In this document: one piece after another, positions 16,805-44,582 of the stretch
Layout: the number at the start of each line of letters is the position of its first letter
Position numbering within the stretch: position 1 is the first letter of the stretch
Assembly (NCBI RefSeq): GCF_002286975.1
Contig: NZ_NSKB01000008.1
Location: 1-64,000, forward strand
Length of the DNA stretch: 64,000 nt
Reading direction: 5' to 3'
From: Halomonas salipaludis
GTDB lineage: Bacteria > Pseudomonadota > Gammaproteobacteria > Pseudomonadales > Halomonadaceae
The notes under the pieces: generated by a model
Seen by the model: the letters and a program-made list of their open reading frames with translations, nothing else
What the model was told of the DNA's origin: nothing
Database searches by the model: none
Program-made: the position numbers and the translations under genes

Positions 16805-16904
16805 ACCCCCCCCCCGGGAAACGTCGCGTCATTAGCGACTCAGCAGCATGGGTCAGCTCATGGCACCGGCCGTCTAACACAATAGAGCTACCAGAATAGA
16901 GCGA

Positions 16905-18233: not shown

Positions 18234-18285
18234 CTTGTCACCTTGATGGTCTTGTTGTTGTTGGCCCATTTGATGGATGAGCCAC

Positions 18286-19704: not shown

Positions 19705-19773
19705 ACAACCGTCCTTCATGCTTTGACGCCTCGCCGGGAAAGGCAAACCTTCCCCACGATCAAGGCATAGGGC

Positions 19774-21225: not shown

Positions 21226-21385
21226 TTTTTTGACCTTCGTATTGTGATTATAGGAGTTATCAACATCACAGGCTTTATATTATTCTCACCCAGGCAAGTG
21301 GCGTTATCCCAAATCGGCACTACGATCTTCTTTTAATTCAATAAGATAAAACATGCCCAAAAACCGAAAACTCACCCACTCTTCG

Positions 21386-21408
21386 CCAAAATAAAAAACT
21401 TATTTTGG
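21386..21408. repeat. AT-rich perfect inverted repeat
   Basis: CCAAAATAA and TTATTTTGG form a perfect 9-bp stem around AAAAC, between the permease start and the dioxygenase stop. It could be a weak terminator for the iac unit or an operator for the permease promoter. There is no adequate T-tract on either side. Confidence 0.4.
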
Positions 21409-21469
21409 ATAGACTGAGCGTTTTTCACGGCTTCCAATTGCGTTAATAGTCCGCTTCTTTTAGATCGCT

Positions 21470-22315: not shown

Positions 22316-22377
22316 GCTCCATTCTCCTCGATGGCCCCATTGCTCGGATCCGGGTGAGCCGCTCAGGCCTGAAGACA

Positions 22378-24275: not shown

Positions 24276-25202
24276 CTATAGAGGGGCGCCGAGGCGCTCG
24301 ATCACGCGCCCCAGCCCCGACTTGATCGCGCTCACTTCGGCCGGCGCCAGGTTCTCGAACAGGCGTCGCTCGTAGTCGTCGGCCATGGCCAGCAAGCGCA
24401 GCGCCAACGCCTGCCCCTCATCGCTGAGCCGGACGCAACCGTCTTCGCCCGGGCCGACCAGGCCACGCTCGCGCAGTCCGTCGAGCGTGTCCTCGAGATC
24501 CGCCTGGGGCTGGGCCACGCGCTCAGCCAAGGCCTCGGCGGCCTGAGGACCGCGGTCTGCCAGCAGGGTCAGAATCCGCCATTCGTTGTCGTTGACTCCC
24601 AGGCTGCCGAGACGCGGATAGAAGTCGCTGCGGTAGGCGGCTAGCGCCTGGCGCATCAGGTAGAGCAGGTGCTTGCCGAGTCGGCCGTTCAATGCCGGGC
24701 GCTCGCCGACGTTGAGTAGCAGAGGATGCGGCTCGGGCACGGCATAGCGCCCGTTGTGGAAGACCAGGGCGCTGCCCTCGTTGCGATAGGCGTAGCGCAC
24801 CACTTCGCCGACGATGATCAGATGATCGCCGCCCTCGTAGACGTTCCACGTGCGGCATTCGAAATGCGCCGCGGCGCCCTTCACCTTGGCTACGCCGCCG
24901 AGCCCCTCCTCGATGTCGATGCCGACGAACTTGTCCTCACCCCGCCGTGCAAAGCGATTGGAGATGTCGACCTGCTCATTGCTAAGCACGTTGACCACGA
25001 AGTGTTCGGCATGGCGGTAGGCATTCAGGCTGTAGGCGCCCTTGTCGATGCTCCACAGGATCAGCGGCGGCTCCATCGACACCGAATTGAAGCTGCTGGC
25101 GGTGACGCCATGGTTCTCCTCGCCCTCGCACGCGGTGACCACCGTCACACCGGTGGCGAACTTGCCCAGCGCGCTGCGGAAATCTCTCGTATCGAAGCTC
25201 AT
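24276..25202 (-). CDS. iacG: IacG-like flavin reductase with C-terminal MarR-like domain
   Basis: A 308-residue protein with two parts. Residues 1 to about 155 are a short-chain flavin reductase (SALGKFATGVTVVTA, GVTASSFNSVSMEPPLILWSI, NVYEGGDHLIIVGEVV), which supplies reduced flavin to a partner monooxygenase, here IacA. Residues from about 170 form a MarR-like winged-helix domain (DNEWRILTLLADRGPQAAEALAERV). The same architecture is known in the reductase C1 of p-hydroxyphenylacetate hydroxylase of Acinetobacter baumannii, where the tail senses the aromatic substrate and speeds flavin reduction. The start at 25202 is fixed by the reductase fold. The order iacF-tautomerase-iacG supports the name. 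Confidence 0.85.
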   Translation of the reverse strand: MSFDTRDFRSALGKFATGVTVVTACEGEENHGVTASSFNSVSMEPPLILWSIDKGAYSLNAYRHAEHFVVNVLSNEQVDISNRFARRGEDKFVGIDIEEGLGGVAKVKGAAAHFECRTWNVYEGGDHLIIVGEVVRYAYRNEGSALVFHNGRYAVPEPHPLLLNVGERPALNGRLGKHLLYLMRQALAAYRSDFYPRLGSLGVNDNEWRILTLLADRGPQAAEALAERVAQPQADLEDTLDGLRERGLVGPGEDGCVRLSDEGQALALRLLAMADDYERRLFENLAPAEVSAIKSGLGRVIERLGAPL

Positions 25203-25464: not shown

Positions 25465-26436
25465 TCAGAGATCGAGAACGATCCGTTTACCCTTAGCCCG
25501 AGAGCAGCAGACGCACATCATCTCGCCCTCCTGCTTCTCCTCTTCGGTGAGAAAGTGATCGCGATGATCGATCTCACCTTCGATGACGTCGGCCACACAA
25601 GTACCGCACACGCCCTCCTCGCATTTCACTTCCACTTTCACGCCGGCCTTGGCGAGGGCCTTGGCAATGGTCTCCTCGCTACCCACGGAGACAGTGACGC
25701 CAGACCTTTCGGCAATCACCTCGAAAACGTCGCCCGAGACATCGACGTCCACCGAAAAGAATTCGCGATGAATACGCTCATCGCCGATGCCGGACTCCCG
25801 GGCCCGCGAGATCACCCACTCCATGAATCCCTGGGGACCGCATACGTAGACGTGCGCGCCTTCCCTGGCAGCGGCGAGCTCGGCGTTCAGATCGAGCTTG
25901 GTCTCCAACTCGTCGTCATGGTGATAGACGACGACGTCGGAAAGCCCGGCCGCCTCCACCTCGCCGCGGAAGGCCGTCACGCTGCGCGAGCGCGTGCAGT
26001 AGTGCAGCGTGAAGTCCTTGCCCAGCGCGCGCAGGCGGCGAGCCATCGCCATCATCGGCGTGACCCCGATGCCGCCGCCGAACAGCAGGCTCTGCGGCGC
26101 CTCCTCGTGTAGCGGGAAGTGATTTCTCGGCCCCTCTATCTCGAGCGTCTCCCCCACCCTGGCGATTCGATGCAGGGCCTCCGAGCCACCGCGGCTGTTG
26201 GGGTCGCGCAGCACGCCGATCTCGTAGAACTCGTTCACTTGCGGATCCGAGCAGAGCGAGTACTGGCGCCACAGGTCGATCTCGCCATCGCGCACGTGCA
26301 CGTCCAGATGCGCGCCGGCGGTGAAGGGCGCCAGCGGCGCGCCGTCGAGCGAGCGCAGCCGCAGCCTGGCAATGCCGCCCGGCTCATCGATGCGCTGGTC
26401 GATCGCCAGCGTCAGGCGTTGGTTAGCGGTATCCAT
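25465..26436 (-). CDS. iacF: IacF-like dioxygenase reductase (FMN, NADH and plant-type 2Fe-2S domains)
   Basis: A 323-residue reductase of the phthalate dioxygenase reductase/VanB type. The flavin site is RQYSLCS (about residues 57-63), the NADH domain has GGGIGVTPM (about 120-128) and CGPQGFM (about 199), and the C-terminal ferredoxin has C-x4-C-x2-C-x29-C (C272, C277, C280, C310). It passes electrons from NADH to the Rieske oxygenase IacCD. The start was set at the ATG at 26436, eight bases after GAGG; upstream GTG and ATG codons are too close to that site. It follows iacE by five bases. Confidence 0.88.
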   Translation of the reverse strand: MDTANQRLTLAIDQRIDEPGGIARLRLRSLDGAPLAPFTAGAHLDVHVRDGEIDLWRQYSLCSDPQVNEFYEIGVLRDPNSRGGSEALHRIARVGETLEIEGPRNHFPLHEEAPQSLLFGGGIGVTPMMAMARRLRALGKDFTLHYCTRSRSVTAFRGEVEAAGLSDVVVYHHDDELETKLDLNAELAAAREGAHVYVCGPQGFMEWVISRARESGIGDERIHREFFSVDVDVSGDVFEVIAERSGVTVSVGSEETIAKALAKAGVKVEVKCEEGVCGTCVADVIEGEIDHRDHFLTEEEKQEGEMMCVCCSRAKGKRIVLDL

Positions 26437-26441
26437 TGGCA

Positions 26442-27200
26442 TCACCTCATGTAGATTCCACCGTTGACGTCCCAGCAGGCGCCGTTGACGAAGGCCGCCC
26501 TGGGGCTCGCCAGCAGCACCACCAGCTCGGCGACGAAGTGCGGGTCACCCAGGCTGCCCACCGGGATGTTGGCGATGGCCTGCTCGAGATTGCCGCCCAG
26601 CACGGAGCGCACCATGGGCGTATCCATGGGGCCGGGCGCGATGGCATTGCAGGTGACGCCAAAGGGCGCGAGATCGCGGGCGAAGATCTTCGTCAGCGTG
26701 AGGATGGCGCCCTTGGAGGCGGCATAGTGCGCCCCGGTGGCCGTGCCGCCGTTCTGCCCCGCCAGGGAGGCGAGATTGACGATTCGCCCGTAGCCGCGCG
26801 CCTTGAAGTGGCGGCCGAAGACCTGGCTGCCGGCGAAGGTGCCGCCGGCGTTGGTGGCCAGCACGGCATTGAAGTCCGCGGGGTCGATCTCCAGCAGCCC
26901 CTGCACCACCGTGCGCGCCGCGTTGTTGACCAGCACCTCGACCGCCCCCCAGCGCTCGATGCACTTGTCGAGCACGGCCTGGAAGTCTTCGGGTTGCGAC
27001 ACGTCCAGGGTGGCGGAGACGGCAGTGTCGCCCGCCAGGTCGAGTTCGGCGGCCAGCGCCGCAGCCGGCTCGGGCTCGATGTCCGAAATCACCACCCGGA
27101 AACCGGCCCGATGCAGGGCGCGCACGGCTTCGGCGCCGAAACCACGCGCCCCACCGGTCACCACCGCCGTCTGGATCTTGTCAGGAGTCGGCATCGTCAT
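26442..27200 (-). CDS. iacE: IacE-like short-chain dehydrogenase
   Basis: A 252-residue short-chain dehydrogenase. The cofactor loop TGGARGFG (about 15-22), the NNAA motif and the catalytic YxxxK in HYAASKG are present, followed by the usual NAIAPGPMDTPM. In the indole-3-acetate pathway IacE has been linked to conversion of the hydroxylated indole acetate toward dioxindole-3-acetate. The ATG at 27200 shares one base with the TGA of iacD, so translation is coupled and no separate ribosome site is seen. The open frame upstream of 27200 belongs to another frame of iacD. Confidence 0.87.
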   Translation of the reverse strand: MTMPTPDKIQTAVVTGGARGFGAEAVRALHRAGFRVVISDIEPEPAAALAAELDLAGDTAVSATLDVSQPEDFQAVLDKCIERWGAVEVLVNNAARTVVQGLLEIDPADFNAVLATNAGGTFAGSQVFGRHFKARGYGRIVNLASLAGQNGGTATGAHYAASKGAILTLTKIFARDLAPFGVTCNAIAPGPMDTPMVRSVLGGNLEQAIANIPVGSLGDPHFVAELVVLLASPRAAFVNGACWDVNGGIYMR

Positions 27201-27694
27201 CAGAACAAATAGCTGAACGAGTTCAGCATCCCGTCGGAGTTGAGCAGACGCGCCACCTTGTGGCGGATCTTGAAGCCGCCCGGCGTGACGATGAGGGTGT
27301 AGCTCAGGTTCGCGGCCCAGATCCGCTGGCGCCCGAACTTGTCTTCGATCAAGTGCTCGGCGCAGCGCACCGTTACTTCGTCGCCCTCGACCTCGTCGAT
27401 GACGAAGCGCGACACTGTGCGAATGGTGCGGGCCGGCGGCGCCGAGGAGATCGAGAACCCCTGCTGGAAGCGGGCGATGCGGTCGCGCCGCATCTTGGCA
27501 TCGTCGTGGCAGAGGTTGAGCGTGTTGGCGAAGTCCTCGCCGTCGCCGATGGGCAGGGTGTAGAAGCCCTCCTCGCTCCACAGGGCGAGCCAGGCGTCGT
27601 AGTCCTGACGGTCCAGCATGTCCGCCTCGGCCCAGATGAAGGCTTCCGCATCGCGCAGCAGGGAGTCATTATCTCGCTTGATCATCTCGTTCAT
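27200..27694 (-). CDS. iacD: IacD-like ring-hydroxylating dioxygenase, small (beta) subunit
   Basis: A 164-residue small subunit with the NTF2-like fold of Rieske dioxygenase beta chains: AFIWAEADMLDRQDYDAWLALW, GFYTLPIGD, then the strand set ending VRCAEHLIEDKFGRQRIWAANLSYTL. It is structural and partners IacC. The start at 27694 overlaps the iacC stop by four bases (ATGA). The longer open frame upstream lies inside iacC and is rejected. Confidence 0.88.
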   Translation of the reverse strand: MNEMIKRDNDSLLRDAEAFIWAEADMLDRQDYDAWLALWSEEGFYTLPIGDGEDFANTLNLCHDDAKMRRDRIARFQQGFSISSAPPARTIRTVSRFVIDEVEGDEVTVRCAEHLIEDKFGRQRIWAANLSYTLIVTPGGFKIRHKVARLLNSDGMLNSFSYLF

Positions 27695-28959
27695 GCCTGC
27701 ATCATCCTCTTCCACATGTCGTACGCCGCCCGCATGCCGGTCTCGGCACTGATATGGCCGCGGGGCCCCACCTCGCCCGGCTGCTCGTCGACGAGACCGC
27801 GATTGAGCAGAATGGGCAGCTCCGCGCCCCCTTTGACGCCGCGTTGTATGCGCTCCCACACCTCCGCGTCGTCGGGCGAGCCGAAGCCCATCGGCCCCTG
27901 GAAGTGTTCGTGCAGGCGCAGGCGCACCTGGTTGGCCGCCTCCGGGCCGCCGTCCATGCCGATGGCGATGTGACGAATGTCGGTCCGCTCGACGTTCACC
28001 GGCGTCAAGACGCGGAAGAAGGCCAGCGAGAACGAGACGTTGGGAAACAGATTGAGGTTGAAGCCGGCCCCGCCCACGGCGCGCACGATGCGCCTCACCT
28101 GCTCATCGGGGTAGCCTTCGTCGCGCAGCTCCCGGGCCAGCTCCGTAAAGCGCTCGGGGATCGGCGCCTCGAGGTTGTCGTCGAGATCCACCAGCTCGGG
28201 GATCATGACCATCACCGAGTGGCCGTTGCCGAGATCCTCGACGTACCCCTTGCCCTGATCCAGGAAGGAGAAGACCTCCTCGGTCTCGTCATCCAACGAC
28301 TGCAGGAAGGACTTGTGCACGACGGGGAAATGATAGGCGTCAGTGGTGTTCTCGAGCTGGACCTTCCAGTTCATCGGCACGCTGAACTGATGCTCGCCCA
28401 GCACCTTGACTGGATAGCCCGCCCCCTGCTTCATGAACAGGTCGATCCACTTGGTGACCGGACCGAGGAAATCGACCAGCGGTTCGGCTTCTTCATTGAA
28501 GGTGGCGAAGACCATGCCGGCGTAGGACTCGGTGCGCAGCTTGAGCAGGCCGTGCTGCGCCTTGTCGAAATCGTCGCCGTACTGCTCGGGGTAAGGCAGC
28601 GCCCGCAGCGAGCCATCCAGCCCGTAGCCCCAGCCGTGGTAAGGGCACTGGAACGAGGAGGTCTTGCCCTTCTTCACCTCGCACACCGTGGCGGCACGAT
28701 GGCGGCAGCGGTTCACCATGACGTGGATCGCACCCTTCCTGTCGCGCACCACGATCACCGGCTCGAGCCCCACCTGGGAGAGCCTGAACGAACCCTTTTC
28801 GGGGAACTCGCTTTCGTGGGCAACCCACACCCAGGTTTTCTTGAAGATTTTCTGCATCTCCTCCTCGAACAGCCTGGGATCCTCGTACATGGGCGTGCGA
28901 ATGTGATCCTTGAACACCAGCTCGTGAGGGGTGATGTCGATCTTGTTTTGGCTATTCAT
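27691..28959 (-). CDS. iacC: IacC-like Rieske ring-hydroxylating dioxygenase, large (alpha) subunit
   Basis: A 422-residue oxygenase subunit. The Rieske cluster ligands are C85-R-H87 and C105-P-Y-H108. The mononuclear iron site is in NTTDAYHFPVVH (H210 and H215, with D207 as the inter-subunit bridge) and a C-terminal acidic residue near 363 (SPDDAEVW). In known Iac systems this oxygenase acts late, on the dioxindole-acetate intermediate, leading to catechol. GAGGT precedes the start. It is encoded 60 bases after iacB and is coupled to iacD. The assignment to IacC rests on the full cluster content as well as the sequence. Confidence 0.9.
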   Translation of the reverse strand: MNSQNKIDITPHELVFKDHIRTPMYEDPRLFEEEMQKIFKKTWVWVAHESEFPEKGSFRLSQVGLEPVIVVRDRKGAIHVMVNRCRHRAATVCEVKKGKTSSFQCPYHGWGYGLDGSLRALPYPEQYGDDFDKAQHGLLKLRTESYAGMVFATFNEEAEPLVDFLGPVTKWIDLFMKQGAGYPVKVLGEHQFSVPMNWKVQLENTTDAYHFPVVHKSFLQSLDDETEEVFSFLDQGKGYVEDLGNGHSVMVMIPELVDLDDNLEAPIPERFTELARELRDEGYPDEQVRRIVRAVGGAGFNLNLFPNVSFSLAFFRVLTPVNVERTDIRHIAIGMDGGPEAANQVRLRLHEHFQGPMGFGSPDDAEVWERIQRGVKGGAELPILLNRGLVDEQPGEVGPRGHISAETGMRAAYDMWKRMMQA

Positions 28960-29019: not shown

Positions 29020-29367
29020 TCACTCGGGCACGACCAGTTCGCGCCCGATTCGCGCCTCGACCCGGCAGTATTTCCACAGCTTGTAGGTGCCGTCGCCCAC
29101 CGGCGTGGTGCGGAAGAAGTTGCAGGCCTCGACGATGGATTCGTAGTCCTCCACGTCGGCCATGATGTAGAAGGTCCAGGGGGCGGCGAGGGAGGGGCCG
29201 ACCTGAATGCGGTCGTCGTCCATGATGCCCAGGATCGTCAAGCCGGGCAGGCCGTCGATGCCCTGCAACATCTCGCGGGTGGCCTCCCACACCTGCTTGG
29301 CCTCCTCGGCGGTGGCGTTCATGAAGTTCTGATTGATGCCGCAGCAAAACAGTACGCGATGCATCAT
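29020..29367 (-). CDS. iacB: IacB-like small protein of unknown function
   Basis: A 115-residue protein without a recognised catalytic motif. It has a two-strand, helix pattern (RVLFCCGINQ, AKQVWEATREML, WTFYIMADVEDYESIVEACNFF) that suggests a ferredoxin-like alpha-beta barrel, as in small mono-oxygenase or EthD-type proteins. Every described iac cluster carries a small protein next to iacA named IacB, with no established function. The start has tandem ATG codons at 29367 and 29364 after GGAG. It lies 31 bases from the iacA stop. Name given by position and size. Confidence 0.65.
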   Translation of the reverse strand: MMHRVLFCCGINQNFMNATAEEAKQVWEATREMLQGIDGLPGLTILGIMDDDRIQVGPSLAAPWTFYIMADVEDYESIVEACNFFRTTPVGDGTYKLWKYCRVEARIGRELVVPE

Positions 29368-29398: not shown

Positions 29399-30544
29399 TC
29401 ACAGGTAACCCGGCAGGGGGTCGTGATCGAAGAAGATGGCCCCGGCGTTCTTCCAGGTGATCTCGCCCATGAAGGCGTGCTGGGTGCACAGCGATGCGTC
29501 ACGCAAAATGCGTGACAAGGGGTGGCCGTTCTCGGCACCGGTCATGCCGCTGATCTGGTACACGCTGCGGATGGCCTCGGCGCACTCATGGGTCAGGTGG
29601 GTAGCGGAGAGTCGCAGCAGGTTGATCTGCTCGCGGCTCGGCTCGCCGCCGGCCTCGACGGCACTCCAGGCCGATTCGGTGCTGTCGTAGAAGAAGGCAC
29701 GGGCGGCACGCACCCGGGCCTCGGCCTTGGCCAGGCCGATCTGGGCGTACTCGCGTTCGCCCAGATTGGGCGCCCCGGTGACCGACTTGCGCCCTCCGGC
29801 CATGGCCCGCACCACGTCCAGAGCCTCCCGCGCCAGCCCCAGGGTGGTGACCGCCAGTACCTGGGTGGCAAAGGAGAGGGCGGGGTAGCGGAAGAAGGGC
29901 GCGTCGATGGTGGCCCTGGCGCCGCGCACGAAGGTCCACTCCTCGGCAACGTAGGCCTCGTCCACCACCAGGTCGTGGCTGCCGGTGGCGACCATGCCCA
30001 GCATGTTCCAGGTGGGGTCGATGCGAACCTGCTCGCGGGGCAGCACCGCCATGCGCGGCAGGGCGCCGGGGTCGTCGGGCTGGATGCCGACACCGCACAG
30101 CGAGGCGCTCATGCAACCGCTGGCGAATTTCCAGCGCCCCTTGATGCGAAAGCCGCGGTCGACCCGCTCGGCGGGATGGGGCGGAAAGATACCCCCCGCG
30201 AACACCACGTCGGGAGAGTCCTTCCAGATCTGGGTGATGGTCGCCTCGGGCAACGCCGCCAGGTAGGCGGGGTTCATGCCGAAGCTAGCCACCCAGCCGG
30301 CGGAACCGTCGGCCGCCGAAATGGCTTCGACCATCTTCAGGAACTCGGCGGGGGATTTCTCATCGCCGCCGTACCTGGCCGGCACCATGGCGCGATAGAC
30401 GCCAATGGCCTTGAACTCCTCGACGATGTCCGGCGAGAGGTGTCGCTGTGCTTCGAACTCTTCTCGCCGCTGGCGGATATTGTCGAGCAGCGCATCGAAG
30501 CGCTCCTCTCCGCCCCACTGGGCTTTATCGACCTGGCTGTGCAT
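29399..30544 (-). CDS. iacA: IacA-like flavin-dependent monooxygenase (acyl-CoA dehydrogenase fold)
   Basis: A 381-residue group D flavin monooxygenase with the acyl-CoA dehydrogenase fold. Segments include VPARYGGDEKSPAEFLKMVEAI, ADGSAGWVASFG, IKGRWKFASGCM and the C-terminal helix bundle ending near HPLSRILRDASL. In known systems IacA begins indole-3-acetate breakdown by hydroxylating the indole ring at C2 with reduced flavin from IacG. The start at 30544 has CAGGAGAAG and overlaps the end of iacH by 20 bases. Proteins of this fold also act on dibenzothiophene and 4-hydroxyphenylacetate, so the substrate rests on the cluster content. Confidence 0.85.
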   Translation of the reverse strand: MHSQVDKAQWGGEERFDALLDNIRQRREEFEAQRHLSPDIVEEFKAIGVYRAMVPARYGGDEKSPAEFLKMVEAISAADGSAGWVASFGMNPAYLAALPEATITQIWKDSPDVVFAGGIFPPHPAERVDRGFRIKGRWKFASGCMSASLCGVGIQPDDPGALPRMAVLPREQVRIDPTWNMLGMVATGSHDLVVDEAYVAEEWTFVRGARATIDAPFFRYPALSFATQVLAVTTLGLAREALDVVRAMAGGRKSVTGAPNLGEREYAQIGLAKAEARVRAARAFFYDSTESAWSAVEAGGEPSREQINLLRLSATHLTHECAEAIRSVYQISGMTGAENGHPLSRILRDASLCTQHAFMGEITWKNAGAIFFDHDPLPGYL

Positions 30545-31697
30545 GGGCTTCTCCTGTTGTTTGAATGGCCTCGTCAGGCCCTGTACCCACCAAGTAGCGC
30601 GCGACCAGATAGCGCGCGGCCCGGCAGACACTGGCGTCATCGCCACGCCGGCCAATGAGCTGCAGGCTCACCGGCCGTCCCCGGCTCGGGGGCAGAGGCA
30701 GGCTCAGGGCGGGATGCCCCGAAAGATTGAAGGGCCGCACCAGGGACGAGACGCTCAGGTCCTGCTGCCCCACCTCGGCTGCCGCGCGGGTCAGCGGAAA
30801 GTGCGGCAGTGTCGGCAGCGCCAGCACCTCGTAAGTCTCGAGCAGCCGGTCGACGGCGGCAGTGAAGGCCAGGCGCACCGCTTCGGCCTCGCGCAGTTCG
30901 GCGTCGGTGGTCTCGGCGGCCGCACGCAGGCGGCGCTCCACGTCACTTCCCAGGCGGCCGCTGTCGAGCCAGGCGGCACAGGCCATGTAGGTTTCGCGCT
31001 TGATCAGCGCCATGGCGGCATCAAAAGCTTCGTCCATCAGCGGCAGATCGCCCTTCTTGCCGGCCAGCCCGGCGCCTTCGAGACACGCCTCCACCGCAGC
31101 GAGAACCGTCGTATCGGCCGCCACCTCTAGCCTGCACAGGCGTGGCATCGCCGCGCCCTCTCCGACCGCGAAACCGTCGTCCACGGCCGCCATGAAGGCG
31201 ATCAGCTCATCGAGATCGGCGCTGAGCGGTCCCACGCAGTCCAGGCTGCTGAACGTGGGCATGACCCCGTGCCGACCGAGCCGACCGAAGGTGGGCTTCA
31301 ATCCGTACACACCGCAGCAGGCTGCCGGCACCCGGATCGAGCCGCCCGTGTCGGTGCCGATGCCGATCTCGGCCAGGCCCGCCGCGACCGCCGCCGCCGA
31401 GCCGCTGGAAGACCCACCCGGGATCAGTGCCGGGAAGCGCGGATTCTCGGGGGTGCCTGTCCAAGCGTTGAGCCCGGTCATGCCGAACGCCAGCTCATGC
31501 AGGTTGGCCTTGCCGACGATGCGGTAACCGGCTGCCAGCGTGCGCTCGACGATCTCGGCATGCCTCTTGGCCGCCGGCGCACCGGCCAGCGCCGCCGAGC
31601 CCGCCCGGGTCGGGTAGCCGGCGATATCGATGCTGTCCTTGACCACGACTCGCTTGGGGCCCGTGCCGAGGTCGAGAGCTTGGATGAGAGATGACAT
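30525..31697 (-). CDS. iacH: IacH-like amidase
   Basis: A 390-residue amidase-signature hydrolase with the complete Ser-cisSer-Lys triad: K20 (VVVKDS), S96 (PGGSSSGS) and S120 (DTGGSIR). In iac clusters IacH is the amidase that could release indole-3-acetate from its amide or act on an amide intermediate. It is the first gene of the twelve-gene unit. The start at 31697 is used because the amidase fold begins there; the frame is open to 31733 but crosses the palindromic operator. Relatives are GatA and indoleacetamide hydrolase. Confidence 0.85.
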   Translation of the reverse strand: MSSLIQALDLGTGPKRVVVKDSIDIAGYPTRAGSAALAGAPAAKRHAEIVERTLAAGYRIVGKANLHELAFGMTGLNAWTGTPENPRFPALIPGGSSSGSAAAVAAGLAEIGIGTDTGGSIRVPAACCGVYGLKPTFGRLGRHGVMPTFSSLDCVGPLSADLDELIAFMAAVDDGFAVGEGAAMPRLCRLEVAADTTVLAAVEACLEGAGLAGKKGDLPLMDEAFDAAMALIKRETYMACAAWLDSGRLGSDVERRLRAAAETTDAELREAEAVRLAFTAAVDRLLETYEVLALPTLPHFPLTRAAAEVGQQDLSVSSLVRPFNLSGHPALSLPLPPSRGRPVSLQLIGRRGDDASVCRAARYLVARYLVGTGPDEAIQTTGEAHAQPGR

Positions 31698-31717
31698 GGC
31701 AGCCTTTTGTTTATTTC

Positions 31718-31733
31718 TCACATGAAATTTCAA
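31718..31733 (-). promoter_or_regulatory. Palindromic operator, copy 1, upstream of iacH
   Basis: Plus-strand block TCACATGAAATTTCAA containing the perfect 10-base palindrome TGAAATTTCA (31723-31732). It begins 21 bases upstream of the iacH start codon. On the minus strand a weak -10-like TTAAAT lies directly upstream, so a bound protein would sit at the transcription start region. The same block occurs at 34754 and 37064. Confidence 0.72.
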
Positions 31734-31808
31734 GTATTTAATGGCACGCTGATTCGTTTCTTGACCTACTTTCGCCCTACCTATTTACCTTCACTTCCTA
31801 CCTTTACT

Positions 31809-33098
31809 TCAGAGAACGAACAGCACGATCTCGGGCACCAACAGCAGCAGCGCGATGCATATCAGATAAGGCGACATGAAGTAGCCGACGCCGCGAAAGA
31901 TCTCGCCGAAGCTGAGCTCGGGATCGAGGCTCTTGACGATGAAGGCATTGACCCCCACCGGCGGTGTGATCGCTCCCATGCTGGTCACGATGCAGACCAT
32001 GATGCCGAACCAGATCGGGTCGTAGCCCAGCACCAGCGCCACCGGGAAGAAGATGGGAATCGAGATGATCAAGAAGCCCATGGCATCCATCAACGCCCCA
32101 CCGATCACGTAGATCAGCAGCACGCAGGCCATGACCAGCACCGCCGGCAGGGGCAGCGCCGCGGCCCACTCGCCAACCAGGAAGGGCAGCCGTGTCACGG
32201 TCAGGAAGCGCCCGAACACCACCGCTCCTGCCACCAGCATCAGGATCATCGCCGAGGTTCTGAGGGTGTTGCTCAAGGCGTCACGCAGCATCGCCCATGT
32301 GAACCGTCCACGCAGGCCGATGATGGCGATGGCGCCGACGCAGCCAACCGCCGCCGCCTCGGTGGAGGTGAACCAGCCGGCGAACAGCCCGCCCAACACC
32401 AGGATGAAGAGCGCGAATATCTCCAGCACGCCCTTGAGCGAGGCTAGTCGCACGCCCCAGCTGGAGCGCACGCCGGCCGGCGCCATCTCCGGGTTGCGCC
32501 AGCAGAGATAGGCAATGGTCAGCACGAAGAGCGTCATCAGGATCAAGCCGGGCACGATGCTGGCGATGAAGAGGTCGCGAATGGCCAGCTCGGCCTGCAG
32601 CGCGATCACGATCAACACGGCACTCGGCGGAATGATGATGCCCAGGGTGCCGCCGGTGGCGACGCTGCCGGCGCTCAGCGCCTTCTGGTAGCCGAACTTC
32701 TTCATTTCCGGCAGGGCAATGGTACCCACCGTGGCGGCCGTCGCCGTGTTGGAACCGCACACCGCGGCGAACCCGGCGCTGCTCAGGATCGTCGTCGTGG
32801 CCATGGAGCCCTGACGATGCCCCGTCCAGGCGTATGAGGCAGCGAAGAGTTTCTCGGTGATTCCCGAGCGGAACAGCAGCTCCCCCATGAAAACGAACAG
32901 CGGTATGACGCTCAGGGAGTAGGAGGAGAGCTGCTCCCAGATACCCGAGCTGATGATGTTGTATGCCGCCATGGGGCTGGTGATGTGCAGCATCCCGAAG
33001 AAGCCGACGATGAACATGGCAAAGCTGATGGGCATTTTCAGCACGATCAGCAGGAAAAGCGCCAGCACGCCAACGATGGCCAACATGGTGAAGCTCAT
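31809..33098 (-). CDS. dctM: TRAP transporter large permease subunit DctM
   Basis: A 429-residue inner-membrane protein with about twelve hydrophobic segments and the DctM hallmarks: MPISFAMFIVGFFGM near the N-terminus, GSNTATAATVGTIALPEM near residue 125 and GGTLGIIIPPSAVLIV near 150. The TRAP large subunit moves an organic acid using a sodium gradient after delivery by DctP. Its start overlaps the dctQ stop by four bases. It ends 112 bases before iacH, and that gap contains operator copy 1. Confidence 0.93.
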   Translation of the reverse strand: MSFTMLAIVGVLALFLLIVLKMPISFAMFIVGFFGMLHITSPMAAYNIISSGIWEQLSSYSLSVIPLFVFMGELLFRSGITEKLFAASYAWTGHRQGSMATTTILSSAGFAAVCGSNTATAATVGTIALPEMKKFGYQKALSAGSVATGGTLGIIIPPSAVLIVIALQAELAIRDLFIASIVPGLILMTLFVLTIAYLCWRNPEMAPAGVRSSWGVRLASLKGVLEIFALFILVLGGLFAGWFTSTEAAAVGCVGAIAIIGLRGRFTWAMLRDALSNTLRTSAMILMLVAGAVVFGRFLTVTRLPFLVGEWAAALPLPAVLVMACVLLIYVIGGALMDAMGFLIISIPIFFPVALVLGYDPIWFGIMVCIVTSMGAITPPVGVNAFIVKSLDPELSFGEIFRGVGYFMSPYLICIALLLLVPEIVLFVL

Positions 33099-33571
33099 GC
33101 TTGCTTACTCCGAGTCAGGCACTCCAGCACGTCCACCAGCAGCACCAGGCAGAACGCGGTGAAGCCGAAGGCGACCATGTAGATGATGGGATAGATGGCC
33201 AAGCGCAGAGACTGCGAGACGGTGCCACGCTGCATGGCCAGGATGCCGTACTCCCAGAGCTTGAACGCCACCATGGCGAAGAACAGCAGGCTCGTCAGCG
33301 CCACCAGGGCCTGTATGAGACGCTGTAATCCCCGAGGCATTCGAGCCACCAGCATATCCAGCTCGATGTGCGCCTTGGTGGCCTGGGCATAGGCCAGGGA
33401 TAACGCCACCACCACCGCCGTGAGCCAGCCCACCACCTCGGTGGTACCGCCGAATGAGGAGGCGAACTGGCGCATGACGATATTGGTCACCACCAGCAGC
33501 ATCATCGCCAGCAAGGCCGTCCCGGCGAGGGCAAGCAATAACCGACTGACCAAAAGAGAGAGTCTATTCAT
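33095..33571 (-). CDS. dctQ: TRAP transporter small permease subunit DctQ
   Basis: A 158-residue protein with four membrane helices (about residues 8-30, 45-65, 85-108, 127-150). WLTAVVVALSLAYAQATKAHIELDML is the conserved DctQ core with its buried acidic/basic pair. The start at 33571 was chosen from the first hydrophobic helix; the frame upstream encodes no membrane or conserved sequence. It is coupled to dctM by ATGA and follows dctP by 74 bases. Confidence 0.9.
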   Translation of the reverse strand: MNRLSLLVSRLLLALAGTALLAMMLLVVTNIVMRQFASSFGGTTEVVGWLTAVVVALSLAYAQATKAHIELDMLVARMPRGLQRLIQALVALTSLLFFAMVAFKLWEYGILAMQRGTVSQSLRLAIYPIIYMVAFGFTAFCLVLLVDVLECLTRSKQA

Positions 33572-33645
33572 GAGCCAGCACTCATCGTGTCGAATGTTTC
33601 CCGGGCCAAGGCCCGGGCACCTGTCGCTACTAGCTGGTCCTGTCA

Positions 33646-34692
33646 CTACTGCTGATATTGCTCGAACAGCTCGAGCATGCGCTCATGAAATTCATGCGCC
33701 GGCAGGCCCAGCTCGGCCACGCGGGCCAGCCGCGCCTCATTGATCGGTACCAGCCGCTCGGTCCAGCGGGCCGCCTCTTTATCGCTTAGCGAAAGCACTT
33801 CGACGCCCTCTTCCTCGCGCGCCCACTCCAGCGTCGCCTCGACGTGGGAATCGAGATAATCCCCGGCGAAGAAGGCCATTTCGGCGCCCAGCTCATCGAT
33901 GACCTGCTGAACGTCCTCGGGCAGCGACTCCCAGCGCTGGCGGTTCATGACCGCCACCAGTACCGCATTGGTCAAGGGGTAGTCGGTGACGTACTTGACG
34001 GTGCGCGCATAGCGCAGATCCCTCAGCACTTCCCGTGAACTGATATAGCCGTCGACGACACCGGCCTGCAGCGCCTCGCCGGTATCGGCCTGGGAGAGCG
34101 CTACCGGCACCCCGCCCAGCGCCGCTAGTACATCGGTGCTGTCGCCAGGTACACGGATCTCCTGACCGTGTAGCGCCTCCAGCGAGGTGATCGGGTCCTT
34201 GGTCTGCAAATAGCCGGGTTCGGAGGTGAAGGCTGTAATCACCTTGAAGTCCTCGAGCCCCAACTGCTCAGGGGGGAATTCCTGAATCAGGTCGTAGAGT
34301 GTCTGACTGGCCACGGTCGAGTTGACCGCCTGGCCGGTGATACTGCCCACCAGGTTGAGCAGCGGAAAGCGGCTCGGCTCATAGGAAGTGATCGAAAGGC
34401 CGATGTCGGCGACGCCGTTCAGCACGCCGTCGTACATGTTGTTGGCGGATAGGAGGGTACTGCCGGGAAAGGTGTTCACCGTCACACGTCCGTCAGTGCG
34501 GCGCTCAAGCTCCTCCGCCCAACGCTCCATCTGCACGCCGGGAAAGGTGCTGGCAGGCGAAATGAAGGCATAGCTGAGGGTGATGTCGCTGGCTGCTACG
34601 AGCGGGCTTGCCAGGGCACTCATCAGCACACCCGCCAGCCCGATGGCACCGGCCACGCGCCGAAGGCTCGACACTGGATTCTTCGTCATCAT
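33646..34692 (-). CDS. dctP: TRAP transporter periplasmic solute-binding protein DctP
   Basis: A 348-residue secreted binding protein. The signal peptide (VAGAIGLAGVLMSALASPLVAA) is followed by ITLSYAFISPASTFPGVQMERWAEELE, the usual DctP start. The ligand-anchoring arginine region is GQEIRVPGDSTDVLAALGG (about residue 165). Tandem ATG codons at 34692 and 34689 follow an AGGTAGGA site. The gene starts 61 bases downstream of operator copy 2, which ties this transporter to the iac unit. Substrate may be indole-3-acetate or another aromatic acid; inference only. Confidence 0.92.
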   Translation of the reverse strand: MMTKNPVSSLRRVAGAIGLAGVLMSALASPLVAASDITLSYAFISPASTFPGVQMERWAEELERRTDGRVTVNTFPGSTLLSANNMYDGVLNGVADIGLSITSYEPSRFPLLNLVGSITGQAVNSTVASQTLYDLIQEFPPEQLGLEDFKVITAFTSEPGYLQTKDPITSLEALHGQEIRVPGDSTDVLAALGGVPVALSQADTGEALQAGVVDGYISSREVLRDLRYARTVKYVTDYPLTNAVLVAVMNRQRWESLPEDVQQVIDELGAEMAFFAGDYLDSHVEATLEWAREEEGVEVLSLSDKEAARWTERLVPINEARLARVAELGLPAHEFHERMLELFEQYQQ

Positions 34693-34747
34693 GGGTCCTA
34701 CCTCTCTTATCGTTGTTGTCCGGATGCTTCTGTGTCATCCGATACAC

Positions 34748-34769
34748 TCAATATCACATGAAATTTCAA
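34748..34769 (-). promoter_or_regulatory. Palindromic operator, copy 2, upstream of the TRAP dctP gene
   Basis: Contains TCACATGAAATTTCAA (34754-34769) and six further bases (TCAATA) that are identical in copy 3. On the minus strand the palindrome falls between a TTGCAT and a TGATAT in roughly -35/-10 spacing (16 bases), which would suit a repressor. Confidence 0.7.
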
Positions 34770-34820
34770 GCAATGCAAATTGCACACATCTGTCCGCAGA
34801 GCGAACGTTAGCTGCCTGGC

Positions 34821-36941
34821 TTACCGATCATGATCGGCCATGAGCTGCTCATGATTGGCCACAATCTGCTTGTGCTGGCGCTCGAGCAGGACGAACGAGC
34901 CGACTGTCGCCGCCAGGCGCAACGCCTGCTCCTCGAGCCTGTCGGCCGCCGCGGCGGACTCTTCGACCAATGCTGCGTTCTGCTGGGTCATGCGGTCGAG
35001 CCCCACCACCGCCTGATTGACTTGACCGATACCCTGGCTCTGCTCGCTGGAGGCAGCGCTGATTTCGTCTAGAACATGGGTGACCCGCGCCACGCTGGCC
35101 ACGACTTCGCTCATGGTAGCGCCGGCGGCCCGCACGAGCTCCGAACCTGCCTGGGTCTTGGCGGTGGCGTCCTCGATCAGCTCCTTGATCTGCCGGGCGG
35201 CGGCAGCGCTGCGACTGGCCAGCTGACGCACTTCGCCGGCCACCACCGCAAAGCCACGGCCCTGCTCGCCAGCACGAGCCGCCTCCACCGAGGCGTTGAG
35301 CGCGAGCAGGTTGGTCTGAAAGGCAATGCCGTCCATCACCGAGACGATCTCGGCGATCCGCTGCGACGAGCTGTCGATGTCGTTCATGGTCCGCACGGCT
35401 TGCGACACCACTTCCCCGCCGCGGGAAGCGACCTGCGAGGCGCTGCGGGAGAGTTCATTCGCCTGCTGGGACGAGATGGCGGTGTGCTCGACGGTACTGG
35501 TCAACTGCTCCATGGAGGCCGAGGTCTCCTGCAGGTTGGCGGCCGCGGTTTCGGTTCGCGCCGACAGGTCCTGGCTGCCCATGGCAATCTCGCCGGCGGC
35601 GACACGCACCGAGTCGCTGCTGTCACGCACGTCAAGCAGCACGTCGTTCATCTTGTCGACGAAGGCATTGAACTGGATCGCCAGCCTGGCGCTTTCATCG
35701 CGGCCAGTGACCGGCAGACGCCGGGTCAGGTCGCCATTGCCGGCGGCGATGTCCTGCATGCGTTCGGCCAACCGCCGCAGCGGGCGCGCGATGCTCTCCC
35801 CCACGAGCCATGCCGCCACCAGCCCCAGGCCGGCAATCAGCAGTCCGATCAGGGTCATGCCCAGGATGTCTCTATCGAGCTGTTCCTCGGTCTGCCGCTG
35901 CAGCCCGTGCAGCCCGGCGAGCACCGCCTCTTCGGGCTGCCGAATCATCAGCACCCAGGTGCGGTCGACCTCACCGATGGTGAAAGGCCAGTAGAGCTCG
36001 ATCACACCCTGCTCGGCATCGTGCAGGTAGATCGCCTCACCGTGCTGGGCCTGCCGTATGCGCTCCTGCAGGGCGGCATCGAACACCTCGTTGAAAGGCT
36101 CACCCAGCCTGGCCTCCTCCCGGGTATGCGCTACCACTCCACCCAGCGGCGCCATCAGGGCCATTTCCCCCGCCCCTTGGTAGAGGTTGCGGTTTTCCGC
36201 TTCGAGCATGGATTGAATGAAGTCGACCGTCAGGTCGACGCCGGCAATGCCGCGAAACTCGCCGTCGACCAGCACCGGAGCAACGAAGGAGGTCAGCATC
36301 ACCTCCTCGTCTCCCACCTGGTAGACATCCGGGTCGGTAATGCAGGGCCGCAGCGTCTCCCTTGGACAGAGATAGTACTCACCGACGCGCAGACCATTAG
36401 ACTGCATGGCGTCGTTCTCCATGACCTCCTCATCCTGAGCCATGATCTCGAGTCGGCCGCTCTCGTCCCGATACCAGAGCGGCATGAAGCGGCCGTTCGG
36501 GCCATGCCCGGGAAGACCCTGACGGGAATAGACACCGTCCGGCCCAAAGGCATTGGGCTCCCAGGCGATATAAGCGACCGGAAGCTCCTGGTTGACTTCC
36601 AAAAACCTGCGAATGACATCGCTCAAGTCCCGGCGGCTCAAGCCAACCCCGGACGTCCCTTCCTCGGACTCCGAACCCATCAGCGAGTTGATCGCCGCCA
36701 GCCCCTTGGCCACCTCGAGCGCCTGGACCAACTGCACCTGAATGCGCTGCGCTTGATAGGAAGCCATGGCATGCAAGCGGCCTTCCGTCTCGTTGAGCAG
36801 TATGTCCTGCGCCCCAGAGCGAGTAGCTTGCTGGGATCTTGAATTTGCCATGACGAAGTATGCGGACAAGCCCAGCACGGCCAGGGTGATGGAAACGCCG
36901 ACCAGCAGCGTGACGAATGAGCGCAATGATTTGAATTTCAT
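34821..36941 (-). CDS. Methyl-accepting chemotaxis protein with dCACHE sensor domain
   Basis: A 706-residue chemoreceptor. A first membrane helix (about 9-31) leads to a periplasmic double-CACHE sensor (about 40-340; WEPNAFGPDGVYSRQG and FRGIAGVDLTVDF are typical), a second helix (about 359-380), HAMP (about 381-435) and a long signalling helix pair with the hairpin EQGRGFAVVAGEVRQLASRSA. There is no C-terminal CheR-binding pentapeptide. The start at 36941 places the first helix at the N-terminus. Operator copy 3 lies 117 bases upstream, so this receptor is likely co-regulated with iac and the TRAP genes and may sense the same compound. Ligand not proven. Confidence 0.92.
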   Translation of the reverse strand: MKFKSLRSFVTLLVGVSITLAVLGLSAYFVMANSRSQQATRSGAQDILLNETEGRLHAMASYQAQRIQVQLVQALEVAKGLAAINSLMGSESEEGTSGVGLSRRDLSDVIRRFLEVNQELPVAYIAWEPNAFGPDGVYSRQGLPGHGPNGRFMPLWYRDESGRLEIMAQDEEVMENDAMQSNGLRVGEYYLCPRETLRPCITDPDVYQVGDEEVMLTSFVAPVLVDGEFRGIAGVDLTVDFIQSMLEAENRNLYQGAGEMALMAPLGGVVAHTREEARLGEPFNEVFDAALQERIRQAQHGEAIYLHDAEQGVIELYWPFTIGEVDRTWVLMIRQPEEAVLAGLHGLQRQTEEQLDRDILGMTLIGLLIAGLGLVAAWLVGESIARPLRRLAERMQDIAAGNGDLTRRLPVTGRDESARLAIQFNAFVDKMNDVLLDVRDSSDSVRVAAGEIAMGSQDLSARTETAAANLQETSASMEQLTSTVEHTAISSQQANELSRSASQVASRGGEVVSQAVRTMNDIDSSSQRIAEIVSVMDGIAFQTNLLALNASVEAARAGEQGRGFAVVAGEVRQLASRSAAAARQIKELIEDATAKTQAGSELVRAAGATMSEVVASVARVTHVLDEISAASSEQSQGIGQVNQAVVGLDRMTQQNAALVEESAAAADRLEEQALRLAATVGSFVLLERQHKQIVANHEQLMADHDR

Positions 36942-37057
36942 AGCAATAGCCTGAATGGGGAGTTTCGTTGTTATTGGCAAGCAACCTCGTTGCGCACGGC
37001 GACACGAGCCTTAGACCTCGGGCCGCTCGGTCTGAGATGGCGAAGGCTGGCTTTCTT

Positions 37058-37079
37058 TCAATATCACATGAAATTTCAA
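37058..37079 (-). promoter_or_regulatory. Palindromic operator, copy 3, upstream of the chemoreceptor gene
   Basis: Identical over 22 bases to copy 2, with the palindrome TGAAATTTCA at 37069-37078. On the minus strand TTGGGT and TGATAT flank it at about 18 bases spacing. It lies in the 195-base gap between the DASS transporter stop and the chemoreceptor start. Confidence 0.7.
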
Positions 37080-37136
37080 CAAACACCCAAACTGATTTTC
37101 AACGCAGCATGGAGCAGCGACCGACAGAACTCAGTC

Positions 37137-38651
37137 TCAAGGAACCAGGCCAGCTATGCCGACCCCGAACACCAGTGGAGTGATGGTATAAAGCACCGCC
37201 ACGATCACCAACAGGCCGATCATGTTCATCCAGATACCGGCACGGATCATGTGGCGAATGGGCAGCTCGCCAGTGGCGAAGGCTACCGCATTGGAAGGCG
37301 TGGCCACTGGCAGCATGAAGGCGCAGCTGACAGCAAAGGTGACCACGATGGTCATTAACAGCGGATCGATGCCGAGTCCCGTGGCGATGGCTCCCATGAT
37401 GGGGAAGAAGGCGGCAGCCGTTGCGGTGTTACTGGTCAACTCAGTAAGCAGGATGATGATGAGGGCGGTGACCACCAGCACCAGCAGCGGCGGCAACCCC
37501 GCCAGCCCCGAGACGCTTGCGCCGATCCAGGCACTCAGCCCGGTGGCGGTGAACTGGGCCGAGAGGGTCAGACCACCGCCGAACAGGATCAGTACGCCCC
37601 ATGGCACTTCACGGGTCGCCGACCATTCCAGCAGGGTCCCCTGCCCGCGTGATGCGGGAATGACGAACATCAGGATAGCCGCCAGAATTGCGACACTGGT
37701 ATCGTTGATATTGGTCAGCCAGGGCAAGGTCGCGGCGATGGCTGGTACCCGCGCCAACAGCGGCAGGAACACCCAGCAGAACACCGCTCCGGCGAAGACC
37801 ATCAACACCCGACGCTCCTCGGGCGTCAGACGCCCCATCGCATTGAGCTCCGACTCGATCATCGCCCGGCCCCCCTGGATGTTCCCAACTTCGGCACGGA
37901 ACACCAGCTTGTTGAGCACCCACCAGGCCAGCAGCAGCATGACGAAGGAGAATGGCAGGCCCATCAACATCCAGTGTCCGAAACCGATGACGACTCCGTG
38001 GGAATCCTCCAGATAGGCACGCATCAGCGCCATGGGCGGCTGACCGATCAGGGTCGCCATGGAACCGATGGTGATCGCGTAGGCGATGCCGACCAGCACC
38101 GCTGCGGAGAACTTGGGTGTCGCCTCGCCATTGCCCAGCGACTTCACCAAAGCAATGATGGAGCCACCAATGGGCATCATGATCACCGCCGTGGCAGTAT
38201 TGCTGACCCACATGGTGATGAACCAACTGGCCGCCATCAGACCAAAAACGATCTGGGCTGGCCGGGTGCCGACCAGTAGCACCGTCATCAGCGCGAAACG
38301 CCGGTGCAGATTCCAGCGCTGGGTTGCCAGGCCCAGCAGCACACCGCCCAGTACCAGAAAGACGATGGAATGCGCATAGGGTGAGGCGGTTGCCCCTACG
38401 GTGGCGATACCGAAGAAGGGAAAGAGCACCAGCGGCAGCAGCGAGGTTACCGGAATCGGGATCGCCTCGGTCATCCACCACACCGCCATCAGCATGGCGA
38501 TTCCCGCCACCATACGTGCATCGAGGTCGAGGCTATTGGGCAACAGCGAGTAGGTGGCCAGGGCGATCAGCATGCCTGCGACTAGGGAAAGTGGCTTGAA
38601 GCCAGTGACGGCAGTGCCAGCAGGCGACGCGCTCATTTCGGCTGAATTCAT
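37137..38651 (-). CDS. DASS/SLC13-family anion transporter
   Basis: A 504-residue inner-membrane carrier of the divalent anion:sodium symporter family. Both copies of the SNT motif are present, in MWVSNTATAVIMMP and ELTSNTATAAAFFP, and the family opening MAVWWMTEAIPIPVTSLLP is clear. Such carriers bring in C4-C6 dicarboxylates, and some prefer other anions. The start at 38651 has CCAGGAG. It follows catA by 113 bases on the same strand, so it is probably the last gene of the cat operon and may carry cis,cis-muconate or an aromatic acid. Substrate is inferred from position only. Confidence 0.9.
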   Translation of the reverse strand: MNSAEMSASPAGTAVTGFKPLSLVAGMLIALATYSLLPNSLDLDARMVAGIAMLMAVWWMTEAIPIPVTSLLPLVLFPFFGIATVGATASPYAHSIVFLVLGGVLLGLATQRWNLHRRFALMTVLLVGTRPAQIVFGLMAASWFITMWVSNTATAVIMMPIGGSIIALVKSLGNGEATPKFSAAVLVGIAYAITIGSMATLIGQPPMALMRAYLEDSHGVVIGFGHWMLMGLPFSFVMLLLAWWVLNKLVFRAEVGNIQGGRAMIESELNAMGRLTPEERRVLMVFAGAVFCWVFLPLLARVPAIAATLPWLTNINDTSVAILAAILMFVIPASRGQGTLLEWSATREVPWGVLILFGGGLTLSAQFTATGLSAWIGASVSGLAGLPPLLVLVVTALIIILLTELTSNTATAAAFFPIMGAIATGLGIDPLLMTIVVTFAVSCAFMLPVATPSNAVAFATGELPIRHMIRAGIWMNMIGLLVIVAVLYTITPLVFGVGIAGLVP

Positions 38652-41308: not shown

Positions 41309-42211
41309 ATGGAGCTGCGACATCTACGCTACTTCTGCGCCGTGGCGGAGGAGCTCAACCTGACCCGCGCGGCCGCCAAGCTACATATGGCACAGCCGCC
41401 TTTATCAAGACAAATCAAGCAGCTGGAGAGCGAGATAGGCGCCAGGCTGTTCGAGCGCAGTACCCGCGGGCTGCGCCTGACGCCGGCGGGCCAGTTTTTC
41501 CATGAGCATACCTTGCAGATACTGGAGAAGGTCGACACCACCGTTGCCGCGACCCAGCGCATGGCCCGCAGCAGACGCGTGATATTCGGCATCGGCTTCG
41601 TGCCGTCGATGTTCTACGGGCAGCTGCCGCTGTTGGTGCGGGAACTACGACAAAAGGATGGCATCGAGCTGGTGTTAGCCGAGCTGACCACGGTGCAACA
41701 GGTGAAGGCGCTCAAGAGCGGGCGCATCGACCTGGGCTTCGGACGGTTGCGCATCGACGACCCCGACGTGGAGCAGGACAACCTGTTCGACGAGCCGCTG
41801 CTGGCGGCCCTGCCCGAAGGCCACCCGCTGGCGGACACCAAACCGACCCTGGCCCAGCTCGCCGAGTACCCGCTGGTGCTGTTTCCGGCCCAGCCACGTC
41901 CGAGTTTTGCCGACATGACGCTGGGGCTATTTCGCCGCCGCGGCCTCAAGGTCAGCGTGGCCCATGAAGCCAACGAGCTGCAGACGGCGCTGGCGCTGGT
42001 CGCTTCGGAGATCGGCATCACCCTGGTGCCGGAGCAGGTCAAGCGAGTGAAACGCGATGGCATCGTCTACGTTTACCTCGCCGACCCGGGGCTCACCTCG
42101 CCGGTGATCTGCAGCCGGCGCAAGGGCGAAGCCCCCTCGCCGGTCATGCAGGAAGCCAACGCCATTCTCGAGGCCCTGCTGGAGAACCGGCGCAGCGGGC
42201 GCTATCCGTGA
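41309..42211 (+). CDS. catR: LysR-family regulator CatR/BenM-like
   Basis: A 300-residue LysR regulator whose N-terminus MELRHLRYFCAVAEELNLTRAAAKLHMAQPPLS (shown here in parts: MELRHLRYFCAVAEELN and AQPPLSRQIKQLE) closely follows the CatR/BenM group. The effector domain holds the inducer-loop sequences VPSMFYGQLP and EVASEIGITLVPE-like ALVASEIGITLVP. Known members respond to cis,cis-muconate and activate catB-type promoters. GGAGGT lies just before the ATG at 41309. It is divergent from catBCA. Confidence 0.9.
   Translation: MELRHLRYFCAVAEELNLTRAAAKLHMAQPPLSRQIKQLESEIGARLFERSTRGLRLTPAGQFFHEHTLQILEKVDTTVAATQRMARSRRVIFGIGFVPSMFYGQLPLLVRELRQKDGIELVLAELTTVQQVKALKSGRIDLGFGRLRIDDPDVEQDNLFDEPLLAALPEGHPLADTKPTLAQLAEYPLVLFPAQPRPSFADMTLGLFRRRGLKVSVAHEANELQTALALVASEIGITLVPEQVKRVKRDGIVYVYLADPGLTSPVICSRRKGEAPSPVMQEANAILEALLENRRSGRYP

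Positions 42212-43243: not shown

Positions 43244-44582
<1,339 letters not shown>

Follow-up and report, generated by a model that had tools for sequence, protein, structure and literature searches.

The window analysed here, 64,000 nucleotides (positions 1 to 64,000) of contig NZ_NSKB01000008.1 of Halomonas salipaludis, carries on its minus strand a cluster related to the iac genes of indole-3-acetate (IAA) catabolism, together with genes for a tripartite ATP-independent periplasmic (TRAP) transporter and a chemoreceptor, and a 16-base box, TCACATGAAATTTCAA, recurs before each of these three units. Their order on that strand is chemoreceptor, dctPQM, iacH, iacA, iacB, iacC, iacD, iacE, iacF, and an iacG-like reductase gene, with the box preceding the chemoreceptor gene, dctP, and iacH. 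The chemoreceptor (34821-36941), assigned from domain and structure matches and from pocket mapping, has a PctD-like dCache sensor domain with an altered pocket. dctP (33646-34692) encodes a TRAP substrate-binding protein whose nearest relatives bind aromatic acids; dctQ (33095-33646), the small permease, was assigned from its position and hydrophobic sequence, has no NCBIfam match, and probably has an internal true start; and dctM (31809-33098), the large permease, matches TIGR00786 above the cut-off. Within the iac cluster, iacH (30525-31697) encodes an amidase (Pfam Amidase) and iacA (29399-30544) a flavin-dependent monooxygenase of the acyl-CoA dehydrogenase type, 55% identical to its homolog in the Klebsiella iac cluster. 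iacB (29020-29367) is without a Pfam match and takes its name from the position that it shares with the annotated IacB of locus L160. iacC (27691-28959, Rieske dioxygenase alpha subunit), iacE (26442-27200, SDR dehydrogenase), and iacF (25465-26436, oxidoreductase) were named from sequence and position only, and iacD (27200-27715, dioxygenase beta subunit) from a library scan. Library scans also identified the iacG-like flavin reductase (24276-25202), which matches 4-hydroxyphenylacetate 3-hydroxylase reductases over its full length and has a weakly MarR-like C-terminal part. iacA, B, C, D, E, F, and H occur together with a MarR-family gene, iacR (15291-15767, minus strand), the product of which we propose, by sequence comparison, as the binder of the three boxes. 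The gene order equals that of the Klebsiella cluster, except for an extra gene there between iacB and iacC, and we propose that the H. salipaludis cluster degrades IAA or a close indole acid.

All three boxes are intergenic and read on the minus strand. Box 1 (TTGAAATTTCATGTGA; 31718-31733, or 31718-31735 with the preceding AC) is an exact copy 20 bases from the iacH ATG, box 2 (34754-34769) lies 61 bases from dctP, and box 3 (37064-37079) lies 122 bases from the chemoreceptor start, in the same place as in the relatives G283 and G291. The first-pass annotation had described a block at 31718, 34754, and 37064, each time before a different minus-strand unit, with copies 2 and 3 identical over 22 bases and with no fourth copy in the window, and our scans bear out all of this: the 16-mer has exactly three copies, and no other window match exists at up to three mismatches. 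A scan of the intergenic regions of the window at up to five mismatches returned the three sites, opposite-strand overlaps, and one five-mismatch match at 44473. The 10-mer at the core, TGAAATTTCA, starts at 31723, 34759, and 37069, whereas dinucleotide shuffles of the window would lead one to expect 0.02 copies.

The same holds for the whole genome (G000; 5,475,884 bases), in which the exact 16-mer is confined to the three window places and matches with one or two mismatches are absent. Many random copies across the genome, the outcome that the first-pass annotation had named as refuting its own proposal, were thus not found. At three mismatches there are 12 further places, compared with 2 for a reversed control pattern; the gene caller, which misses genes, set 2 of the 12 inside genes and left 10 unplaced, one of which (L016) falls within an open reading frame. 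Five copies of the 10-mer exist genome-wide, and of the two outside the three boxes one (L001) is inside an open reading frame resembling an ABC binding protein, and the other (L005) overlaps ATGAAATTTCAA, by eye a gene-start-like stretch, where no open reading frame of at least 100 amino acids covers the copy. A weak fourth target may exist on contig 12, where a three-mismatch site, ATGAATTTTCATATGA (L013, 1501-1516), stands upstream of the gene for another TRAP-like binding protein.

Conservation of the box in the Halomonadaceae

The family set comprised 275 Halomonadaceae genomes; its members are related, so that the counts below describe non-independent events, and because gene calls are incomplete in the lower-G+C relatives, homologs were counted by tblastn. 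At one mismatch or fewer, the 16-mer occurs at 48 places in 29 of the 275 genomes, compared with none for the reversed control. Forty-four of the 48 places, in 25 genomes, sit in iac loci, and the other 4 (in G081, G145, G191, and G218) are isolated, with no match to iac genes, dctP, the chemoreceptor, or IacR in the 20 kb fetched. The box also tracks the regulator: an IacR homolog (E <= 1e-25) is present in 27 of the 275 genomes, namely, all 25 with a box in an iac locus, G253, and G036. Close DctP homologs (E <= 1e-90) were found in 23 genomes, 22 of which have the site, with G253 carrying variants at two and three mismatches.

The placement of the box is conserved as well. All 26 iacH genes examined have it upstream (19 exact copies, 5 with one mismatch, 1 with two in G121, and 1 with three in G253), and in 25 of them the best copy ends 18 to 23 bases before the start codon; the exception, G184, has an exact copy at 263 bases before iacH and a one-mismatch copy near 22. 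Among dctP genes whose products are at least 64% identical to that of the window, 24 of 24 have the box at up to three mismatches, 48 to 90 bases upstream (12 with two or fewer, 12 with three), and 8 of the 12 three-mismatch versions read TTTACTTTTCATGTGA, with the right half intact. The chemoreceptor box is found in 3/3 of the closest clade (G000, G283, and G291), the same genomes that have the full three-box arrangement, which recurs at locus L205 of Halomonas ventosae. Around these sites the consensus extends to approximately ACTTGAAATTTCATGTGA, most of the flanking sequence is variable, and a TRTTGA-type stretch downstream of the dctP box is conserved too. This refines the earlier description, in that the conserved unit proves to be longer than the 10-base palindrome and asymmetric around it.

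That the three copies are a chance occurrence or a recently duplicated, functionless repeat might be suggested by the 22 bases common to copies 2 and 3. However, the copies have different flanks and nearly fixed distances to the start codons, and the boxes are conserved across the family where most of the flank is not. The genome and family scans, with their reversed control pattern, rule out chance, and we regard the probability of this alternative as practically negligible.

In some relatives the regulon seems to be larger, since extra boxes at L091 (approximately 4898-4913, G121) and L095 (approximately 6754-6769, G159) precede units with octopine-dehydrogenase-like and hydroxyacyl-CoA-dehydrogenase-like genes and another dctP (names by eye). 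Some loci look broken: iacH and iacA of G215 are fragmented, and a stop interrupts the MarR match in both G245 and G184, reflecting in each case either decay or sequencing error.

The box outside the family

Loci outside the family were drawn from the best 80 of at least 496 confirmed IacA relatives; 62 of the 80 are from outside, 55 with a usable iacH start. In 43 of these 55 loci, a site within 150 bases of iacH agrees with the Halomonas consensus at 12/16 positions or more, compared with 4/1100 random windows of the same loci (0.4%), 23/1100 shuffles, and 3/55 loci with the reversed consensus. Pseudomonas, for example, has AATTGACATTTCACGT, and Neptuniibacter has AGTTGACATTTCAAGT. Before iacH, a Klebsiella aerogenes plasmid has a perfect 16-base palindrome, ACTTGAAATTTCAAGT, a Klebsiella pneumoniae plasmid has the palindromic box ACTTGAACTTTCAAGT, and a plasmid locus of Sagittula has a weaker match. 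In an Acinetobacter locus, ACTTGACAATTCCATT (12/16) stands shortly before iacH; a single further place within the 17 kb scores equally. An IacR gene was missing from the fetched flanks of 19 outside loci; 14 of these (all except L231, L244, L248, L268, and L273) were searched genome-wide, and an IacR-type gene was present in 14/14. At L260 it would lie about 3 kb beyond the locus edge, if the contig of this locus is C1.

By eye, the box in several of these groups overlaps a -35-like TTGACA, which raises the question of whether the repeat could be part of a promoter, conserved as its -35 box (TTGAAA or TTGACA), instead of an operator. As this explanation would have it, TTGACA or TTGAAA forms the left half in Pseudomonas, Klebsiella, and Acinetobacter, and a possible -10 element follows about 17 bases on (again by eye). 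In 11 of the 24 family dctP boxes, however, it is this left half that is altered (mostly to TTTACT), while the right half, TTCATGTGA, is retained; the gap of about 20 bases between the box and the iacH start is too short for a -35; and a bare -35 element would not be restricted to iac loci across 275 genomes. We therefore consider a promoter element very improbable.

The boxes as putative operators of an IacR-type repressor

The product of iacR matches Pfam MarR with 44.3 bits (cut-off, 24.6). Against the PDB its best match is 7kua (E, 1.5e-42), followed by 7l19 (3.1e-30) and 7l1i (7.6e-18), with 7kfo, IadR, far behind (1.5e-7). 7KUA is Pseudomonas putida IacR according to the available text of PMC9613470, and that text and the accessible part of PMC11630574 give 7kua, 7l19, and 7l1i as IacR-group proteins from P. 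putida, Enterobacter soli, and Acinetobacter baumannii. By these matches the MarR protein singled out in the first-pass annotation is of the IacR type. Its Tyr35 aligns with a tyrosine of 7kua and is invariant in seven IacR-like proteins; it corresponds to Tyr44, the tyrosine of P. putida IacR that contacts the IAA carboxylate, only on the assumption that the 7kua chain has a 24-residue tag.

According to the available text of PMC9613470 and PMC11753152, IacR is a repressor that is relieved by IAA. It is highly probable, in our view, that the three sites in the window are operators of the IacR-type repressor encoded at 15291-15767 and coordinate the iac, dctPQM, and chemoreceptor units. An auxin-sensing repressor is thus very probably what binds the shared site, and ACTTGAAATTTCATGT(GA) offers the best explanation of what this operator would be. 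In the mechanism that we propose, an inducer-free IacR dimer would sit on ACTTGAAATTTCATGT, in which two ACWTGAAA half-sites face each other, and would keep RNA polymerase off the three minus-strand units: iacHABCDEFG for the breakdown of IAA or a close indole acid, dctPQM for the TRAP importer, and the chemoreceptor gene. An inducer bound to IacR would free the DNA, and the three units would come on together. Binding by IacR, repression, the identity of the inducer, and a compound shared with the receptor are what we infer from the arrangement. The single regulon put forward in the first-pass annotation is supported by the genome-unique sites, by their near-fixed distances across the family, and by the tracking of the IacR gene.

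Another regulator of the cluster might own the box, either the AraC-type protein encoded at 15872-16804 or the LysR-type protein encoded at 41309-42211. The AraC gene adjoins iacR in the window and has homologs in the relatives G154, G177, G283, and G291. On the other hand, such a homolog was detected in 5 of 32 region sets, with none detected in regions such as those of G011, G118, G121, G159, G161, and G274, where the MarR gene and the box are both present, and the LysR gene sits with cat genes. The near-palindrome of the box suits a dimeric MarR protein, and the presence of IacR in every one of the 14 outside genomes searched points the same way. A different owner is therefore improbable.

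Several observations weigh against control of all three units by IacR from this box. Genome G036 has the MarR gene and neither an iac gene nor a box in the 60 kb fetched. In the window, iacR is without a box of its own, and a simple promoter scan of 31600-37300 found no sigma-70-like pair. Outside the family, two of the five plasmid loci (Thioclava and Neorhizobium) have no 16-mer match within three mismatches. Eleven of the 12 three-mismatch dctP boxes carry their changes in the left half; among 18 dctP genes of lower identity, 6 have a three-mismatch box and 12 have none, so that the box is present in 30 of 42 dctP genes overall; and 2 of the 5 iac-linked chemoreceptor genes (in G225 and G245) are without it.

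Some neighbouring genes can be described here. The AraC-type gene opens an adjoining module without a box (15872-23436), in which we recognized, by eye, a porin, an aldehyde dehydrogenase, a permease, an intradiol dioxygenase, and a maleylacetate-reductase-like gene; a partly similar module adjoins the iac genes in Sagittula. Two minus-strand open reading frames that share a frame, 19774-20208 and 20260-21171, look like the two parts of one APC-type permease (family by eye) divided by a single in-frame stop. On contig 66 of G036, the IacR homolog lies near DASS and catA homologs.

A candidate auxin importer

By sequence, the structures nearest to DctP are 4n6d, 4pgn/4pgp, and 4nap. Its predicted fold (predicted local distance difference test score, 86.6) is nearest to 4n6d and Dde_0634 (4nap), followed by binders of coumarate, cinnamate, ferulate, caffeate, and 4-hydroxyphenylacetate. 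The window DctP is 38 to 40% identical to 4n6d and Dde_0634 and 21 to 27% identical to the coumarate, ferulate, and related binders, placing it beside the aromatic-acid TRAP binders (TarP) and Dde_0634. The ligands of 4pgn and 4pgp are, we take it, indole-3-pyruvate and IAA. With nearest relatives that bind aromatic acids, dctPQM is proposed to encode a TRAP importer of the aromatic-acid type and is a candidate for auxin uptake. TRAP genes likewise adjoin iac genes in Thioclava and Sagittula, and the link to uptake is therefore wider than the Halomonadaceae.

A chemoreceptor with an altered pocket

The sensor domain of the chemoreceptor, about 310 residues, is dCache-like, and its nearest structure is 7prq, that of PctD (E, 3e-69). 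PctD-like sensor domains are found in 130 of the 275 family genomes (E <= 1e-60), and the window genome has a second copy on contig 23 (46%); among the matches listed, the window receptor has close counterparts only in G283 and G291 (72%), the others reaching at most 60%. PctD pocket positions were mapped from the available text of PMC9040839 and PMC10104139. All five iac-linked copies (G000, G283, G291, G225, and the partial copy of G245) have Leu, Gln, and Leu in place of PctD Trp155, Met169, and Met215. None of the other receptors in the comparison has Gln169 or Leu215, and Leu155 is found among them in L175, L176, L177, and L182, the rest having Trp155; in this comparison, the pocket changes are specific. 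The unlinked paralogs also depart from PctD (Leu169, Val215, and mostly Tyr188), which cautions against a simple reading of the pocket.

The receptor departs from two known types. Amine receptors of the PctD type (dCache_1AM), to which the nearest solved sensor domain belongs, have an aromatic residue at PctD Trp155, and this is absent, being Leu in the window and in the four other iac-linked copies. PcpI, a chemoreceptor that P. putida 1290 needs for taxis to the IAA that it degrades, has a short sensor domain (construct residues 38-174), does not recognize IAA directly, and adjoins an ABC transporter, as far as the accessible part of PMC9543091 goes; the window domain, in contrast, is about 310 residues long and of the dCache type.

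The linkage, the shared site, and the non-PctD pocket suggest that the chemoreceptor detects the compound that the other two units would import and degrade. The box could also be an IacR operator and the units be co-regulated while the receptor detects something else, such as an amine. The closeness to 7prq and the retention of the residues at PctD Arg103, Tyr206, Ser217, and Asp235 agree with this, but the changes of Trp155 to Leu and of Met169 to Gln in 5/5 iac-linked copies do not: Trp155 makes a cation-pi contact in PctD, and in the available text of PMC10104139 the W155A variant binds choline about 175-fold more weakly. We regard detection of another ligand as possible, short of probable. 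As for IAA itself, we put forward with similar reserve, as a tentative proposal, that IacR runs a programme to find, import, and eat auxin, in which the chemoreceptor would be a new auxin receptor, an amine-type dCache protein retuned at the positions of PctD Trp155, Met169, and Met215 to bind IAA directly and made only with auxin. If true, it would be an auxin chemoreceptor that, in contrast to PcpI, binds its ligand directly.

Relation to known auxin regulons

The iac loci of P. putida 1290, E. soli LF7, and A. baumannii have an IacR-group MarR gene with the iac genes, as does the window; what sets the window apart from those three is the additional presence of the box before the TRAP importer and chemoreceptor genes. 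IadR (MarR_73) of Variovorax paradoxus CL14 is a MarR repressor that IAA releases from a 24-bp site before an auxin operon; it belongs to another MarR group, and the available text of PMC9613470 names one such site and does not mention a TRAP transporter. An IacR operator has been cited as already identified, in the accessible parts of PMC8242030 and of PMC9711524 (the latter from Shu et al. 2015), and the box itself may therefore be partly known. For the widened regulon, in the openly licensed literature, the silence of which is weak evidence, we found no description of a reach to TRAP and chemoreceptor genes and no fitting paper on a link between iac and TRAP genes, on iac genes in Halomonas, or on an auxin regulon joining a chemoreceptor and a TRAP transporter. 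Within the scope of these searches, two findings are new: that the box is conserved over many groups, and that it has spread to TRAP and chemoreceptor genes.

Conclusions

With the box, the IacR group gains a specific proposed operator, open to experimental test, in several groups of proteobacteria. Detection, import, and consumption of one compound probably form a single package in H. salipaludis. More broadly, our findings suggest that halophilic bacteria have extended the auxin-catabolism regulon to uptake and, in a small number of species, to chemotaxis, and they point to a candidate auxin chemoreceptor and a candidate auxin importer with measurable ligands.

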